A stretch of DNA of 19,617 nucleotides from Candidatus Falkowiibacteriota bacterium. GTDB lineage: Bacteria > Patescibacteriota > Patescibacteriia > Patescibacteriales > UBA12075. The position numbers and the translations under genes were made by a program. Location of the stretch: NCBI GenBank assembly GCA_003647675.1, contig QMNH01000003.1, positions 1 through 19,617 on the forward strand. Reading direction: 5' to 3'. Below the pieces are notes generated by a model that was given only the letters and a program-made list of their open reading frames with translations, made no database searches and was not told the DNA's origin. Positions 1,438 to 8,316 of this stretch are shown here, one piece after another; positions within the stretch are counted from its first letter, which is position 1; each line of letters opens with the position of its first letter.

Positions 1438-1464
1438 TTGGCACTCTTGACAGTAGAGTGCTAA
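1438..1464 (+). promoter_or_regulatory. CIRCE operator (HrcA binding site)
   Basis: TTGGCACTC, nine bases, GAGTGCTAA. This matches the CIRCE consensus TTAGCACTC-N9-GAGTGCTAA at 17 of 18 arm positions (one A-to-G change in the left arm). It lies 36 bp upstream of hrcA, so HrcA very likely represses its own operon. No second copy with both arms was found in the window, including upstream of hsp20, dnaK and dnaJ. Confidence 0.95.
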
Positions 1465-1499: not shown

Positions 1500-2180
1500 A
1501 TGGACAAGAGAAAGGAAGTAATTTTAAATACAATTATTAAAGAACATATAAAAACTGGCGCGCCGGTCGGGTCAAGTGTTTTAGTTGAAAAATATAAATT
1601 AAATATTTCATCGGCTACTGTTAGAAATGAAATGGCCAGCCTGGAAGATGAAGAATATATTATTCAGCCGCATACTTCCGCAGGCAGGATTCCAACCGAG
1701 AAAGCTTATAATTTTTATTTAAATAGCATAAAAGGCAAACTGCCGGGCAAGATTGAGATTTCGGAAATAGAAAAATGTTTAGCAAATAGCGGGGAGTCTG
1801 GATTTAAGGAAACCGCCAAACTATTATCCCGGATAACCGGCAACGCGGTTTTTTGGGCTTTTCACCGCCATAATTTATTTTATACCGGGATATCAAATTT
1901 ATTTCAGCAGCCGGAATTTTCCGAATTAGAAGTAATATATGATATATCCGCGATTATAGATAGGATTGACGAAATAATTAATAGTATTTTTGAGGACGTA
2001 AATGAAGGCGTGCATACAATGGTGGGTTCAGAAAATCCGTTTGGTGATTTTTGCGGCACCGTAATAGTAAAATATAAATTTGAAAATAAAGTCGGCCTCT
2101 TTGGCATGCTTGGCCCGATCAGGATGGATTATGAAAAAAATATTGCTTTAGCCCGGTTTATTAGCGGCAAGCTTAAATAG
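1500..2180 (+). CDS. hrcA: Heat-inducible transcription repressor HrcA, compact form
   Basis: Repressor of class I heat-shock genes that binds CIRCE when folded by chaperones. Residues 1-75 form the winged helix-turn-helix, with the typical SSATVRNEMASLE recognition segment (37-49) and HTSAGRIPTEKAY (58-70). The C-terminal signature GSENPFGDF (from about 176) and GPIRMDY is also present. At 226 residues it is roughly 110 shorter than the usual 330-350. The missing length is internal, between the DNA-binding domain and the C-terminal GAF-like part, where the inserted dimerisation domain normally lies. It is first in the island, directly behind CIRCE, so autoregulation is expected. There is no Shine-Dalgarno sequence; the ATG at 1500 is chosen because the family N-terminus starts about here. 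Identification is strong; how it dimerises is open. Confidence 0.93.
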   Translation: MDKRKEVILNTIIKEHIKTGAPVGSSVLVEKYKLNISSATVRNEMASLEDEEYIIQPHTSAGRIPTEKAYNFYLNSIKGKLPGKIEISEIEKCLANSGESGFKETAKLLSRITGNAVFWAFHRHNLFYTGISNLFQQPEFSELEVIYDISAIIDRIDEIINSIFEDVNEGVHTMVGSENPFGDFCGTVIVKYKFENKVGLFGMLGPIRMDYEKNIALARFISGKLK

Positions 2181-2221: not shown

Positions 2222-3058
2222 ATGAATAAAGAGCAAAAGAAAAAATATCCCAAAGCAATTATCGGCGCTTTTATATTTAATGAAAAAAACGAGCTTTTAT
2301 TGTTAAAGCAGGGTAATTGGAAAAATAAATATACTTGTCCCGGCGGCAAGGTTGAATTGGGAGAAACTTTGGAGGAGGCGCTTATAAGGGAAGTGAAAGA
2401 GGAAACGAATTTAGACATAGATGATATTAGGATGTTTGAAGTTGTTGACGGCCTGAATTTAGGAGATAAATACAGGCCGGGCGATGATCATTTTATTTTT
2501 ATTGATTATATCGTGAAAGCAAAAGATCCTGAAAAATTGAAAATAAACAGAGAATCAGTCAAGGCGGTCTGGCTGGAACCGGGAGAGTGGTTAAAGAGAA
2601 AAAAAGATTTGCCGCATAAATATATTATTGAAGCGATTGAGAAAATTAAAAGAGAAGATGCTAGAAACTATGAGGATTTATATAAGCGCGCTTTAGCCGA
2701 TTATCAGAATTTATTAAAAAGAACAACTGATGAAAAAAATAATTTTATGAAATATGCCAATGAACAATTGCTTTATGATATTATTCCGGTTTATGATAAT
2801 TTAAAAATTTCTTTTGTCCATATTGATGAGTCGGCCAAAGATAACGGCTGGGCCGAGGGATTAAAATATGTAATAAAGCAATTTAAGGATGTACTTAGTA
2901 GTATCGGCATAGAAGAAATAAAAACCAAGGGAGAAAAATTTGATCCGCATATCATGGAAGCGATTGAAGGCAAGGGAAGAAAGGTTAAAAAAGAAGTAAA
3001 ACCGGGCTACAAGCTGAACGGGAAATTGCTTGTACCGGCTAAGGTGATGCTTGAATAG
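2222..3058 (+). CDS. grpE: Fusion of Nudix hydrolase domain with GrpE nucleotide exchange factor
   Basis: Two families in one reading frame. Residues about 8-140 are a Nudix domain. Its box at 42-64 reads G, five residues, E48, seven residues, then REVKEETNL (R56, E57, E60, E61), with the usual late Gly replaced by Asn63; the metal-binding glutamates are intact. Residues about 150-278 are GrpE: the helix ADYQNLLKRT, the DIIPVYDNLK segment, EGLKYVIKQFKDVL, and the C-terminal beta domain with GEKFDPHIMEAI and PGYKLNGKLLVPAKVML. GrpE drives ADP release from DnaK. The Nudix substrate cannot be told from sequence. No in-frame ATG, GTG or TTG lies at the junction that would give a full free GrpE. 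The Nudix C-terminal helix runs into the GrpE coiled coil and takes the place of the usual GrpE N-terminal segment. It lies 41 bp after hrcA, the standard grpE position. Confidence 0.93.
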   Translation: MNKEQKKKYPKAIIGAFIFNEKNELLLLKQGNWKNKYTCPGGKVELGETLEEALIREVKEETNLDIDDIRMFEVVDGLNLGDKYRPGDDHFIFIDYIVKAKDPEKLKINRESVKAVWLEPGEWLKRKKDLPHKYIIEAIEKIKREDARNYEDLYKRALADYQNLLKRTTDEKNNFMKYANEQLLYDIIPVYDNLKISFVHIDESAKDNGWAEGLKYVIKQFKDVLSSIGIEEIKTKGEKFDPHIMEAIEGKGRKVKKEVKPGYKLNGKLLVPAKVMLE

Positions 3059-3211: not shown

Positions 3212-3643
3212 ATGTCACCATTAATTAGATGGACTCCATTTCTTGAGCCGTTTGAAGAAATGGATAAAATGTTAAATGAATTTCCGGCTATGCGGAGTAA
3301 GGCCGGTTTTACACCTGCGGTTGACATGTATGAAGACAAAGACAATGTAATCGTGGAAACTCAACTGGCCGGTATTGACCCGGAAAAAGTAAGTATCTCA
3401 ATTGAAAACGATGTGCTTTGCATTAAAGGGCAAAGCGAGAAAAAGAGTGAAATAGAAGAAAAGAATTATTACCGTAAAGAAATAAGGCGCGGCAGCTTTT
3501 ACCGAAGCGTACCTTTGCCGACCCATGTTTTGGGAGATAAGGCCGTGGCTACCGCGGATGACGGCGTGTTAAAAATTTCTATCCCCAAGGCTCTGGAAAG
3601 CAAACCTAAGACGATTGAAATTAAAACAAAAAAGAAAAAATAA
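3212..3643 (+). CDS. Small heat-shock protein, Hsp20/alpha-crystallin family
   Basis: ATP-independent holdase that binds unfolding proteins and passes them to DnaK/DnaJ/GrpE. The 143 residues are a normal length. A short N-terminal arm (1-34) precedes the alpha-crystallin domain (about 35-128), with FTPAVDMYED at its start, the VETQLAGIDPEKVSISIEND core and the ATADDGVLKISIPK signature. The C-terminal IXI motif (Ile135-Glu-Ile137), which docks onto neighbouring subunits in oligomers, is present. The tail is very Lys-rich. It sits between grpE and dnaK, so co-regulation with the island is likely, although no CIRCE precedes it and a leader inverted repeat at 3166-3193 may act instead. No Shine-Dalgarno sequence. 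Confidence 0.95.
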   Translation: MSPLIRWTPFLEPFEEMDKMLNEFPAMRSKAGFTPAVDMYEDKDNVIVETQLAGIDPEKVSISIENDVLCIKGQSEKKSEIEEKNYYRKEIRRGSFYRSVPLPTHVLGDKAVATADDGVLKISIPKALESKPKTIEIKTKKKK

Positions 3644-3707: not shown

Positions 3708-4610
3708 ATGAATAATAAAATGAATGGAGTAAAATTTTCGGTAAAAAAGCCGGTAAAAAATATTTCTAAAAAAATAATTACCGAAAAGAAAATAAAAAAA
3801 TCGGAAACGGCTCAAAAAATACCACCAGCAAAAATTAAAATGCCGAAAAAAACCAATAACAGAGTAATTTCAATTGTTGTTTCTATCGCGGTTACGGCCT
3901 TGATAGCGGGCGGGGGAGTTTACATGTGGCAAAAGAAAGCCAGTTTAAATATAATTGAACAAAAAGAAAAAGAAGCGCAAAATTTGAAATACGATTTGGA
4001 AGAGATATTAAACAAAACCAAAAGTAAATTAACCGGAGCGGAGAGTGATAATGATAATTTAAAGAAAATTAACGAGGAATTAAAAGCCAAGGCCGAGATT
4101 CTAAATATTGCGAAAAGAGAATTTTATAGCGAGGAATATGGTTTTAGCTTTTTTTATCCGGCAGCATTCGGAGAAGCAGTTTTGGAAATCGAAGAGGGCG
4201 TTTTGGGTAAAAAAATAATTGGAAAATTTTCGAATAATGAAAAATTAACTTTCGGCGCCATAACCGAAGATTATAAGGCCGCGACAAGTTCAAAATTAAC
4301 CTTTCTGGATACTCAGGGTTTTAGAAAAAGATGGAATAGTTATTATTTTAAAGCACTAGGAAGTGATACGTATGAAATTAATCCGGTTAAAGTTATAGAG
4401 ATTGGCGGACAAGAAGCGGTTTTGGTTGATAAAAATAGCTTTACAATAGAAGGTGAAGAAATAATTCCGGTTGATATGGGCGGGGATGTTGGCTTTATAA
4501 TAAATTTGGAAAATGAAGAATTTACCGGCATCGGATTTTTAAATTCAGATTTTGGAGTATTGCCGCTGGAGGATTTTGAGTTGCTAATTAAAACTATTAA
4601 GACTAATTAA
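3708..4610 (+). CDS. Unknown membrane-anchored coiled-coil protein
   Basis: Family not recognised. The 300 residues show: a Lys-rich N-terminal region (1-52, probably cytoplasmic by the positive-inside rule); one transmembrane segment at about 53-74 (ISIVVSIAVTALIAGGGVYMW); a heptad-like charged helix at about 82-135, likely a coiled coil; and a C-terminal globular domain (about 138-300) opening with FYSEEYGFSFFYP. That opening recalls PsbP-like or lipoprotein-type domains common in Patescibacteria, but I cannot assign it. The topology puts the globular domain outside the membrane. ATG at 3708 is taken as the start; Met5 at 3720 is possible. It lies between hsp20 and dnaK, 20 bp upstream of a hairpin, so a role in envelope stress is conceivable but unproven. 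Confidence 0.85.
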   Translation: MNNKMNGVKFSVKKPVKNISKKIITEKKIKKSETAQKIPPAKIKMPKKTNNRVISIVVSIAVTALIAGGGVYMWQKKASLNIIEQKEKEAQNLKYDLEEILNKTKSKLTGAESDNDNLKKINEELKAKAEILNIAKREFYSEEYGFSFFYPAAFGEAVLEIEEGVLGKKIIGKFSNNEKLTFGAITEDYKAATSSKLTFLDTQGFRKRWNSYYFKALGSDTYEINPVKVIEIGGQEAVLVDKNSFTIEGEEIIPVDMGGDVGFIINLENEEFTGIGFLNSDFGVLPLEDFELLIKTIKTN

Positions 4611-4687: not shown

Positions 4688-6661
4688 ATGGGAAAAATAT
4701 TAGGAATTGACTTGGGAACTACTAATTGCGCTATGGCGATCATAGAAGGCGGCAAGCCTAAAATACTGGAGAACGCGGAAGGAAATCGCACTACTCCTTC
4801 GGTAGTCGCGATTTCAAAAAACGGCGAGCGTTTAGTCGGACAAACCGCTAAAAGGCAAGCAGTAACTAACCCGGAAAATACCGTTTACGCGGTAAAGCGC
4901 TTAATCGGGCGTAAATTCAACGACGAAGAAATACAGCGCGATTTGAAAAATGTTCCATTTAAAATTGTTCAAGCCGGCGAGGGAGTAAAAGTTAAAATGA
5001 ACGACAAGGAGTATGCGCCGCAGGAAATTTCAGCCATGATATTAACAAAATTAAAAACAGATGCCGAAGCAAAACTGGGGGAGAAAATTACGGAAGCTGT
5101 TATTACCGTACCGGCCTATTTTAACGATTCACAGCGCCAAGCCACTAAAGACGCGGGTAAAATTGCCGGACTGGAAGTAAAACGCATAATTAACGAGCCG
5201 ACGGCTGCTGCTTTGGCTTATGGTTTTGATAAGAAAAAAAATGAAAAAATCGCGGTATATGATCTTGGCGGAGGCACGTTTGATATATCAATTTTAGAGG
5301 TAGACGTTGATGAGGTTGGCGGGGATATTAAAGTTTTATCTACCAACGGAGATACGCATTTGGGCGGTGAGGATTTTGACCAGATAATTATCGAGTGGAT
5401 AATCAGTGAATTTAAAAAAGATCAGGGCATAGACCTATCAAATGATACTTTAGCGTTGCAGCGCATTAAGGAAGCGGCCGAAAAAGCCAAGGTAGAATTA
5501 TCTGCTACTATGGATTTTGAGATTAATTTGCCGTTTATAACTACTGACGCCAGCGGTCCAAAGCATTTAGTAATGAAAATGAGCCGGGCAAAATTAGAAG
5601 AATTGGTCGGAGATTTAGTGGAAAAAACTTTAGGCCCGTGCCGTAGCGCCTTGAAAGATGCCGGCATTGAAACCGGCGCGATTAAAGAAATAATTATGGT
5701 CGGCGGCATGACTAGGATGCCGCTAGTCCTGAAAAAAGTAAAGGAATTTTTCGGGAAAGAACCGCACCTGGGGGTTAACCCCGATGAAGTAGTAGCGATT
5801 GGCGCTACGGTTCAGGCCGGGGTTCTTCAGGGAGACGTTAAAGATGTCCTGCTTCTTGATGTCACCCCCCTGACTCTTGGCATTGAAACCTTGGGAGGCG
5901 TAGCCACGCCCTTGATTGATCGCAATACTACGATTCCAACCAGTAAATCGCAGGTTTTTTCTACAGCGGCCGATAACCAGACCAGCGTTGAAATTCACGT
6001 TGTTCAGGGAGAAAGAGCCATGGCCGGAGATAATAAGACTTTGGGGCGGTTTATATTGGACGGCTTGCCGCCGGCGCCGCGCGGTGTGCCGCAAGTAGAG
6101 GTTTCTTTTGATCTTGACGCCAACGGTATATTAAACGTTAAGGCAGCGGATAAGGCATCGGGAAAAGAACAAAAAATTACTATTACTGCGTCTTCAGGAT
6201 TATCCGAAGAGGAAATCGAAAAAATGAAAAAAGAAGCTGAGGCTCACGCCGATGATGACAAAAAGAAAAAAGAGCAGGCCGAAGTAAAAAATCAATCCGA
6301 AACTGTTGTTTTTACCACTGAAAAATTGTTAAAAGAATCCGGCGACAAGATGAAGCCGGAAGATAAAAAGCAACTTGAAGAAAAATTGGAGGCCTTGAAA
6401 AAAGTTAAAGACACTGATCAGTATGACGAAATAAAAAAGAAAATGGACGAAATGAATGAAGTAGCGCAAAAAATCGGTACTGCCATGTATCAAGAGCAAG
6501 CCCAAGCCGACAAACAGGCTAGCGAAGCGAAAGATGGAGAGAAAAAAGAAGAAGACAAAAAAGACGGAAAAGAAGGAAGCGTAGAAGGGGAGTTCGAAGA
6601 AGAAAAAAGTAACAAAAAAGATGATAATTCCTCAGTAAATTCAGAGGAAGAAAAAAAATAA
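4688..6661 (+). CDS. dnaK: Chaperone DnaK (Hsp70)
   Basis: ATP-driven cytoplasmic chaperone, partner of the DnaJ and GrpE encoded here. The 657 residues are slightly longer than usual. The nucleotide-binding domain (1-385) shows phosphate-1 loop GIDLGTTN (6-13), the [12 protein letters not shown] segment, phosphate-2 loop [10 protein letters not shown] (192-201) and GGMTRMP. The interdomain linker VLLLD lies at 387-391, followed by the beta substrate-binding domain with [13 protein letters not shown] and the helical lid from about 510. The tail is long and strongly acidic/Lys-rich and ends in EEKK rather than the EEVD of eukaryotic forms. The ATG at 4688 gives the standard [13 protein letters not shown] start; no Shine-Dalgarno sequence. 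Expression is probably shaped by the upstream hairpin and by read-through from the CIRCE promoter. Identification is certain. Confidence 0.99.
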
Positions 6662-6821: not shown

Positions 6822-7118
6822 ATGAAAAATCAAAATCCTCAACCGCAAAAAAAAGAAATTAAAATCGCCGATAACATTCCCGGCGGCGAATACGCCAACG
6901 CGATGCAGGTAAACCACAACAAAGACGAGATTCAAATGATGTTTTTAAACATCATGGGCGCCAGCGGGCGGGTAACCGGAAAAATAATGACCAATCCCGG
7001 GCATTTTAAAAGAATGATCGCGGCCATGCAGGATAATTTAAAAAAATACGAAAAGAATTTCGGGGAAGTAAAAGAATCACTTGGTCCGATTGAAAAAGAG
7101 ATAGGGTTTAAAGGGTAG
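6822..7118 (+). CDS. DUF3467-domain protein
   Basis: 98 residues. After a polar N-terminal tail (1-18), the rest fits DUF3467, a small domain of unknown function. It has EYANAMQVNHNKDEIQMMF, then GRVTGKIMTNPGHFKRMIAAMQDNLKKYEKNFG, corresponding to the family pattern of a YANxxxVxHxxxE-type strand followed by R(V)xxxPxHxKxxxxALxxNxxxYE. No signal peptide or membrane segment, so it is likely cytoplasmic. No catalytic residues can be named. It lies between dnaK and dnaJ, behind its own promoter candidate and 110 bp before dnaJ, which suggests a link to protein folding or turnover, but that is only positional. Confident in the family, not in function. Confidence 0.85.
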   Translation: MKNQNPQPQKKEIKIADNIPGGEYANAMQVNHNKDEIQMMFLNIMGASGRVTGKIMTNPGHFKRMIAAMQDNLKKYEKNFGEVKESLGPIEKEIGFKG

Positions 7119-7227: not shown

Positions 7228-8316
7228 ATGTCTAAAGATTATTACAATATTCTTGATATAGAAAAAAATGCTAGTCAGGAAGATGTTAAAAAAGCGTTCC
7301 GCAAAAAAGCCCACGAATGCCACCCGGATAAAAAGGGCGGCGATGAGGCAAAATTCAAGAAAGTAAATGAAGCTTATCAAGTATTAGGAAACGCGAAAAA
7401 ACGGGCTCAATACGATCAATTTGGCTCGTCTTTTGAGCATGCCCAAGCCGGTGGCGGATTCCAGGGTTTTAACGGTTTTCGGGATGCTTCCGGGTTTGCC
7501 AATGGTTTTAACGTGGAATATGAAGATTTAGGAGATGTATTTAGCGGGCTTGGCGATATATTCGGTTTTGGGGGAGGAAAAAGAACAGCCAGAAAAAGAA
7601 GGGGAAGCGACATGCAGACGATTTTGACAATAGAATTTAGGGAAGCCGTGTTTGGCGCGGAAAAAAAAATAAATTTAAGAAAAAAAGTGAAATGCGATCA
7701 TTGCCGGGGGAATTTAGCCGAACCGGGTACTAAAATCGAAACTTGCCAAGTATGCGGCGGCAGCGGCCGGGTAGGCAAAGTGCAGAGAACTATTCTGGGC
7801 AACATTCAGGTTCAGGCTGTTTGCGATAATTGCGCGGGCGAAGGAAAAGTCTACGCGAAAAAATGTACAAAATGCGCCGGCACCGGGGCGGTTATGGAAG
7901 CCGTCAGCCTTAAAATAAATATTCCGGCTGGAATAAATAATAACGAAACTATCCGGTTGAGCGGACAGGGAGAAGCCGGGGAAAAAGGCGCCGGAGACGG
8001 AGATTTGTACATTAAAATACAGGTTAAATCTGATTCTCGTTTTGAGCGGCAAGGTTATGACATAAAAACAAAAATTAAAATAAGCTTTACACAAGCCGTA
8101 TTAGGCGATAAAATAAACATAGAAACTGTTGACGGTTTGGTAAAATTAAAAATTCCGACTGGCACTCAGTCAGGAACGGTTTTTAAATTACGCGGTAAAG
8201 GCGTAACTAAGCTGCAGGGGTCGGGCAAGGGCGATCATTACGTTGAGGTTATAATTAAGACCCCATCTTTCGTAACCAGGAAGCAAAAAGAACTGTTAAA
8301 AGAATTAAATTTATAA
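7228..8316 (+). CDS. dnaJ: Chaperone DnaJ (Hsp40), class A
   Basis: Co-chaperone that delivers clients to DnaK and stimulates its ATPase. Domains in order: J domain (1-65) with the HPD motif at His32-Pro-Asp34; Gly/Phe-rich region (about 66-117); zinc domain with eight cysteines in four CxxC pairs at 156/159, 173/176, 199/202 and 213/216; then the C-terminal substrate-binding beta domains (about 222-340) and a short dimerisation end. The 362 residues are normal. The first zinc repeat is CDHCRGNL, lacking the last Gly of CxxCxGxG, but all zinc ligands are intact. The N-terminus MSKDYYNILDI fits the family start; no Shine-Dalgarno sequence. A long hairpin lies directly upstream, and the next gene begins 2 bp after the stop, implying translational coupling. 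Confidence 0.98.
   Translation: MSKDYYNILDIEKNASQEDVKKAFRKKAHECHPDKKGGDEAKFKKVNEAYQVLGNAKKRAQYDQFGSSFEHAQAGGGFQGFNGFRDASGFANGFNVEYEDLGDVFSGLGDIFGFGGGKRTARKRRGSDMQTILTIEFREAVFGAEKKINLRKKVKCDHCRGNLAEPGTKIETCQVCGGSGRVGKVQRTILGNIQVQAVCDNCAGEGKVYAKKCTKCAGTGAVMEAVSLKINIPAGINNNETIRLSGQGEAGEKGAGDGDLYIKIQVKSDSRFERQGYDIKTKIKISFTQAVLGDKINIETVDGLVKLKIPTGTQSGTVFKLRGKGVTKLQGSGKGDHYVEVIIKTPSFVTRKQKELLKELNL

Follow-up and report, generated by a model that had tools for sequence, protein, structure and literature searches.

A probable heat-shock grpE gene fused to a Nudix domain, and the varied N-terminal modules of GrpE in an order of Patescibacteriota

In the genome of a Candidatus Falkowiibacteriota bacterium (assembly GCA_003647675.1), a gene of the forward strand (2222..3058) encodes a protein of 278 amino acids in which a Nudix domain precedes the nucleotide exchange factor GrpE, as recognized from the open reading frame, Pfam and homologues. 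We consider it reasonably probable that GrpE in this order is a constant exchange core with an exchangeable N-terminal module, and that this gene serves the cell as its heat-shock grpE, with tail and stalk replaced. The sequences themselves establish that the fusion exists and is conserved, that its catalytic residues are present, that relatives have alternative modules in a shared gene neighbourhood, and that module and GrpE are inherited independently. GrpE is usually viewed as a conserved stand-alone factor. Positions refer to the window, which is the whole stretch of 19,617 nucleotides analysed (contig QMNH01000003.1).

The fusion gene and its locus

The fusion occupies a single frame with an ATG start and zero internal stops. 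Pfam NUDIX (PF00293) covers residues 13-137 with 71.6 bits (cut-off 21.1) and Pfam GrpE (PF01025) residues 139-276 with 109.5 bits (cut-off 25.8), which bears out the one-frame fusion proposed in the preliminary description. The equivalog models of NCBIfam stayed below their cut-offs on both sides, with 41.4 bits against 158 for NudC, 41 against 97.9 for MutT and 77.2 against 194 for the best GrpE model, those GrpE models covering narrower groups. With the assembly 88.8% complete, the fusion protein is its sole GrpE match, and there are four NUDIX matches: the fusion, two short frames and one within a long frame. In the same genome, a NUDIX match lies midway along a leucyl-tRNA-synthetase-like frame of 983 amino acids (L166:217-3168, G000:C78); this domain is apparently inserted in the editing region, the synthetase identity having been judged by eye.

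The gene lies at the grpE position of an hrcA-dnaK-dnaJ island, as had been claimed for it. Immediately 5' is hrcA (1500..2180, forward strand, 226 amino acids; open reading frame, Pfam and NCBIfam), and 5' of hrcA there is a CIRCE-like inverted repeat (1438..1464, forward strand) with one mismatch to the consensus; the scan gave one match against a chance mean of 0.01. An Hsp20 gene follows immediately 3' of the fusion (3212..3643), and then dnaK (4688..6661) and dnaJ (7228..8316), all on the forward strand and recognized by open reading frame and Pfam. The order hrcA-grpE-dnaK-dnaJ together with the CIRCE site is, as read from the sequence, that of an HrcA/CIRCE heat-shock operon. This neighbourhood is shared by the relatives: at 101 loci of the order, hrcA was found upstream in 93, hsp20 downstream in 95 and dnaK downstream in 93, with many loci cut by contig ends. 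Other genes of the island were also recorded. The interval from dnaK to dnaJ contains a DUF3467 gene (6822-7118), such a gene being near grpE in 24 of the 101 relatives' loci too, and the gap between hsp20 and dnaK encodes a protein of 300 amino acids (3708-4610) with a probable membrane segment and without a Pfam match. The HrcA encoded at 1500-2180 is short, and Pfam HrcA covers just its second part. Its length ranges from 167 to 248 amino acids in 98 relatives, nearly all of them between 220 and 248, and a short HrcA seems to be a trait of the order.

The N-terminal module is the Nudix domain of residues 1-146 (2222..2659, forward strand), as delimited in the structure model. Its Nudix box at residues 42-61 (2345..2404, forward strand), located by sequence and alignment, reads G42-x5-E48-x7-R56-E57-V-K-E60-E61. 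The box is intact, as first described, except that the usual G near its end is N63, a residue also found in 89 of 119 homologues. E48, R56 and E61 are invariant in all 119 alignment rows, and the six box residues (G42, E48, R56, E57, E60 and E61) are kept together in 114. Because the catalytic residues are kept almost universally in this alignment, the box is under constraint. Within the order they are kept in 20 of the 21 Nudix-GrpE proteins, the one in G091 having lost two. Most of the fused Nudix domains are therefore probably active diphosphate hydrolases, as predicted from these residues. In a fold search, Ap6A, Ap4A, MutT and NudI enzymes were among the matches; they were tied within about 1 Z unit and so name no substrate. 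GrpE was absent among the matches listed, Nudix structures filling those rows. The model has a pTM of 0.57 and does not fix the mutual orientation of the Nudix and GrpE domains.

The GrpE domain extends over residues 149-278 (2666..3055, forward strand), as delimited by Pfam, by sequence comparison with 4ani, 3a6m and 1dkg and by the model. In the model, residue 150 is the first of the long helix, which is near residue 58 of Escherichia coli GrpE (the alignment places 155 at 63). The protein was originally said to contain a complete GrpE. This is true of the helix from residue 150 and the beta domain; the disordered N-terminal tail and the distal stalk are absent, their place being taken by the Nudix domain. 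The residues of the helix that contact DnaK are kept, R156 in 108, N163 in 119 and K166 in 114 of the 119 rows, and correspond to R64, N71 and K74 of Mtb GrpE in an alignment extended ungapped. Since these residues are kept, we infer that the GrpE half is still a nucleotide exchange factor of DnaK. According to the accessible part of PMC12915176, R64 of Mtb GrpE touches the substrate-binding domain (SBD) of DnaK. Because the first retained helix residues match those touching this domain in solved complexes, the module is predicted to lie beside it. The action of the GrpE N-terminal tail at the substrate site of DnaK has been demonstrated recently (PMC12915176, PMC10803776, in the parts accessible to us), and the former source describes the E. 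coli tail as binding this site through an IIM motif and freeing the substrate. Three consecutive hydrophobic residues occurred in the tails of just 2 of the order's 50 loci with plain GrpE, so the order may be without a tail motif of the IIM type. It is a speculation that loss of the motif opened the GrpE N-terminus to modules.

It had also been held that no internal start would free GrpE. Between residues 101 and 180, the in-frame ATG, GTG and TTG codons are TTG 2537, TTG 2609, which has a weak AAAGAG on its 5' side, and ATG 2747, which falls within the GrpE helix. With a Met at residues 126-160 in 34 of the 119 homologues, an internal ATG start is not generally conserved; initiation at TTG 2609 may nevertheless occur.

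Distribution of the fusion and of alternative modules

When about 5.8 billion proteins were searched, 1222 matched at E≤1e-3, and both Pfam domains were present in all 120 listed, our own included. The NCBI names among those listed are mostly Falkowbacteria, Parcubacteria and 'Patescibacteria group bacterium', with Planctomycetes once. As the two domains also occur together in 20 other genomes of the order, chance joining, an error of the gene model or misassembly is ruled out. The alignment of 119 rows, own included, leaves out P0096, a protein of 451 amino acids with the architecture Nudix-Nudix-GrpE.

Among the 111 genomes of the order, 5 had no GrpE match, 5 had only fragments, mostly at contig ends, and 101 were classified. 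Nudix-GrpE was found in 21 of these, our own included, three having DUF1653-Nudix-GrpE. DUF1653-GrpE was found in 27; this class includes G001, G019, G076, G089 and G099, whose GrpE genes have a PF07866 match. In five genomes (G062, G070, G096, G107 and G110), GrpE carries a Nudix-like fold that scores 12-25 bits on the profile of the fused Nudix domains and has lost most of the catalytic residues. The homologues thus do not all have separate nudix and grpE genes, though GrpE is plain in 48 of the 101 genomes (50 loci, two genomes having two), and for this reason the module is dispensable for the function of GrpE. One Nudix-GrpE genome additionally encodes a plain GrpE that is very divergent (L176, G007:C7). 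In the GrpE of relatives, low-complexity in-frame inserts were seen in loops, tails and linkers (L069, L115, L121-L133, P0071, P0163 and others), for example PSAKATED, GPSAGSGQGG and LPTGQAG, as well as five NPPTPLCQGG-like repeats in G059; they look like repeated palindromic elements.

Outside the order the fusion is sparse. There was no match at the level of the fusion in 81 genomes from other orders of the class, and a sample of 379 genomes of the phylum contained two fusions outside the order, both in the same class. In a sample of 380 genomes of the class, 15 matches at E≤1e-70 comprised 8 in the order, 6 outside it and one plain GrpE (G005). The Nudix boxes of two fusions outside the order, G421 and G470, are intact. 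When the GrpE half was used for searching, the 120 proteins obtained comprised 67 without a module, 46 with Nudix (including the box-less P0142 and two N-terminally short proteins) and 7 with DUF1653, one of them recognized by eye. A homology search of a genome-contig collection returned a single locus that matched the GrpE part only. Carriage by viruses was considered and is unsupported: the one scan of a viral collection gave weak matches on the GrpE side at 30-35% identity (L269-L272).

The Nudix fold can be retained without catalysis. A structure model for G107, built from the five dead-Nudix sequences alone, has a mean pLDDT of 61.7, with a poor GrpE half and about 66-91 per block in the N-terminal domain, and the latter domain alone was used. 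The 50 PDB matches listed for it were Nudix enzymes, one row being a Dcp2-containing complex, which suggests that the domain still has a Nudix fold. We built a Nudix tree from 104 rows, namely 63 fused domains (40 of them sampled at random from 118 alignment rows), 36 free domains and the 5 dead ones. The fused label changed 4 times on this tree against 32.5 when shuffled, so exchange seems to take place mainly among fused genes, with little fresh capture from the free pool. The five dead domains form one group (97) amid free, long-branched rows, a placement that could reflect a separate capture.

DUF1653 occurs exactly once in each of the 45 positive genomes of the order, on GrpE in 30 and elsewhere in 15, and it seems that the fusion relocates a single-copy gene. 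In the sample of the phylum, it was present in 106 of 379 genomes, mostly as small separate genes judging by frame length, the set including four frames of 190-241 amino acids. Modules that at one stage looked like truncated Nudix domains, with profile matches starting at 66-105, proved to be DUF1653 by reading and by Pfam.

Independent inheritance of module and GrpE

The alignments and trees show that module and GrpE were inherited independently, identity changing abruptly where the GrpE helix begins. In 7021 pairs among the 119 rows, the identities of GrpE and Nudix correlated with r = 0.14, compared to within-domain controls of 0.52 between Nudix halves and 0.33 between GrpE halves; the N-terminal half of Nudix and the C-terminal half of GrpE gave r = -0.01. 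The rows were picked by likeness to the protein of the window and the correlations are therefore range-restricted, and the GrpE control is itself low. GrpE was at least 80% identical in 61 pairs, of which 27 had Nudix domains of 52% identity or less. The opposite case was also found, with Nudix 95% and GrpE 61% identical between P0085 and P0099, and such pairs, in which Nudix is closer than GrpE, rule out that faster evolution of Nudix alone explains the pattern. In 15-residue windows, identity breaks at about residue 150 in 13 discordant pairs, which places the junction of module and GrpE at residues 147-152 (2660..2675, forward strand).

Swapping the trees of Nudix and GrpE led to lnL losses of 2387 and 1712, and 18 of 116 splits were common to both. 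With half-alignments, the cost was 930-1416 between domains against 210-402 within them, and 12-15 splits were common between domains against 30-34 within. These trees rest on about 140 columns and have many open forks, and the replicates of the AU test were below the program's advice. On a GrpE tree of 126 rows, module state changed 23 times against a shuffled mean of 49.3, and Nudix state alone changed 15 times, with at least 6 changes forced by starred branches. The module state is clustered on the GrpE tree and yet far from a single unchanging origin. One set of ten GrpE domains, 80-98% identical, carries one DUF1653 domain together with Nudix domains, most of which share 33-50% identity, with two closer pairs at 97% and 77%; the 23-33% identity of the DUF1653 domain to the others is noise. 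Two genomes of this set belong to one genus and have Nudix, and a third genome of that genus has DUF1653. The preliminary description assumed a single fixed architecture; its fusion, island and box are upheld, and the fixed architecture gives way to an exchangeable module (Nudix, dead Nudix, DUF1653 or none) on a constant GrpE.

The DNA agrees with the proteins. We compared 21 pairs, 8 differing in module state, 6 differing in Nudix type and 7 of like state. The flanking DNA aligns in the 14 unlike pairs, whereas the module fails to align, wholly or partly: the upstream DNA aligns at about 70-84% up to near the start codon, and alignment is regained no more than about 30 bases from the GrpE start. 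When a DUF1653 gene is compared with a DUF1653-Nudix gene, the upstream alignment continues almost to the end of DUF1653, and in the Nudix-Nudix pairs G017/G045 and G014/G033 part of the module still aligns. In the 7 like-state pairs, the alignment is unbroken across the module. Reading the module borders revealed no dedicated recombination site. The G+C content of the module is often, though not always, lower than that of GrpE. The dN/dS was 0.05-0.27 for modules (defined in 10 of 13 pairs, by a simple method) and 0.02-0.16 for GrpE (defined in 8 of 13 pairs), and these values are rough because dS exceeded 1 in many pairs. The modules are under purifying constraint rather than positive selection.

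Role of the module

We suggest that the usual disordered tail and distal stalk of a heat-shock grpE product have given way to a folded module, for which the N-terminal slot would accept a divergent Nudix, a dead Nudix, DUF1653, DUF1653 plus Nudix, two Nudix domains or none. The modules would be swapped in place by recombination through the conserved sequence on either side. The Nudix module, in most cases presumably an active diphosphate hydrolase, would share the heat-shock control of GrpE and be delivered to the chaperone, where it would be next to the DnaK substrate-binding domain. A bolder version, which we hold to be somewhat less likely than not, is that GrpE of this order is a docking chassis with a recombination-prone slot at the substrate-binding face of DnaK, through which enzymatic, dead and non-enzymatic domains retune Hsp70 or add functions to it; it would be the first housekeeping chaperone factor with a variable cartridge.

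The evidence on the task of the module points in two directions. With the catalytic residues intact in 114 of the 119 rows, a working enzyme is favoured; the 5 dead Nudix and 27 DUF1653 domains at the identical place favour a platform. If the enzyme served a coupled clean-up, the Nudix domain would remove a nucleotide interfering with DnaK or building up under heat or oxidative stress, such as Ap4A, ADP-ribose or an oxidised nucleotide, and the GrpE tether would place it at the exchange site. The heat-shock context of the gene and the Ap6A, Ap4A, MutT and NudI enzymes among the fold matches accord with this, as do the retained residues. However, we regard it as unlikely, as the tied fold matches name no substrate, the identical site is taken by dead Nudix and DUF1653, the free swapping of divergent Nudix types speaks against one fixed substrate, and in the accessible literature we found no title joining GrpE, Ap4A and DnaK. 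It is somewhat unlikely, too, that the compact domain is only a cap that clamps the shortened stalk of GrpE or replaces the substrate-releasing tail, catalysis being incidental to GrpE. The alternation of Nudix, DUF1653 and dead Nudix (five genomes, with a model-supported fold) would then be understandable, and both the IIM action reported for the E. coli tail (PMC12915176, accessible part) and the rarity of hydrophobic triplets in the plain tails fit it; yet a cap has no need of the catalytic residues, which are nearly always kept, and plain GrpE is common.

We likewise consider it somewhat unlikely that the module has its own cellular job and owes its fusion to GrpE only to the heat-shock expression or dosage thus gained. 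The single-copy DUF1653, on GrpE in some genomes and elsewhere in others as if merely relocated, argues for this, and the Nudix inside the leucyl-tRNA-synthetase-like frame indicates that Nudix insertion happens elsewhere too. Against it, one identical fusion point is used in many lineages and by several modules, instead of mere operon membership. A conflict with parasites seems quite improbable. In such a case, an exposed module on a host factor needed by viruses would be swapped to escape a parasite protein, or would act as a sensor of a nucleotide signal. The module does turn over fast against a constant core inside genera, and Nudix domains are among the effectors of NTP-dependent conflict systems (PMC7159879, accessible part), but dN/dS is well below 1 where defined, and the 4 loci obtained from viral contigs match parts of GrpE and leave the Nudix domain proper uncovered. 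The exchange core with a replaceable N-terminal module remains our preferred reading.

Known systems resemble the fusions in part. Canonical GrpE proteins (E. coli 1dkg, Geobacillus 4ani, Thermus 3a6m and Mtb 8gb3) have the helix, the beta domain, the DnaK-contact residues and the hrcA-dnaK neighbourhood in common with the fusion, which differs in having a folded Nudix for tail and distal stalk and in a module that varies among relatives. Stand-alone Nudix hydrolases (MutT, NUDX1, NudI and ApnA) share the box and the fold, whereas the fused domains are joined to GrpE and mostly cluster apart from the 36 free domains of the order. DUF1653 (PF07866; solved as 3be3) replaces Nudix in 27 relatives and precedes it in 3, while it is usually a small separate protein. 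Polymorphic toxins consist of a constant part with exchanged variable domains. The conserved core, the exchanged domain and the sharp break point are similar; in the GrpE fusions, however, the variable part is N-terminal and the core is a housekeeping chaperone factor, and the gene list of the window gave no sign of toxin, immunity or secretion features.

The architecture had been presented as apparently undescribed, and this agrees with our search: in the accessible literature, subscription papers and preprints aside, we found no description of a Nudix-GrpE or DUF1653-GrpE protein, and the literature searched gave no paper on Nudix with Falkowbacteria. The main text of a 2025 review of GrpE-like factors does not contain 'nudix' or 'fusion', and the accessible part of PMC7159879 mentions Nudix and GrpE in separate contexts. 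Automatic annotation already lists the Nudix+GrpE architecture (Pfam, and one JGI name with both domains). In these proteins, the tail is replaced by a folded domain that is usually predicted to be catalytically competent, and they are thus natural chimeras for probing the GrpE N-terminus. The fusion would tie nucleotide hydrolysis to Hsp70 in a way open to experiment, and DUF1653-GrpE provides a lead on the function of DUF1653.
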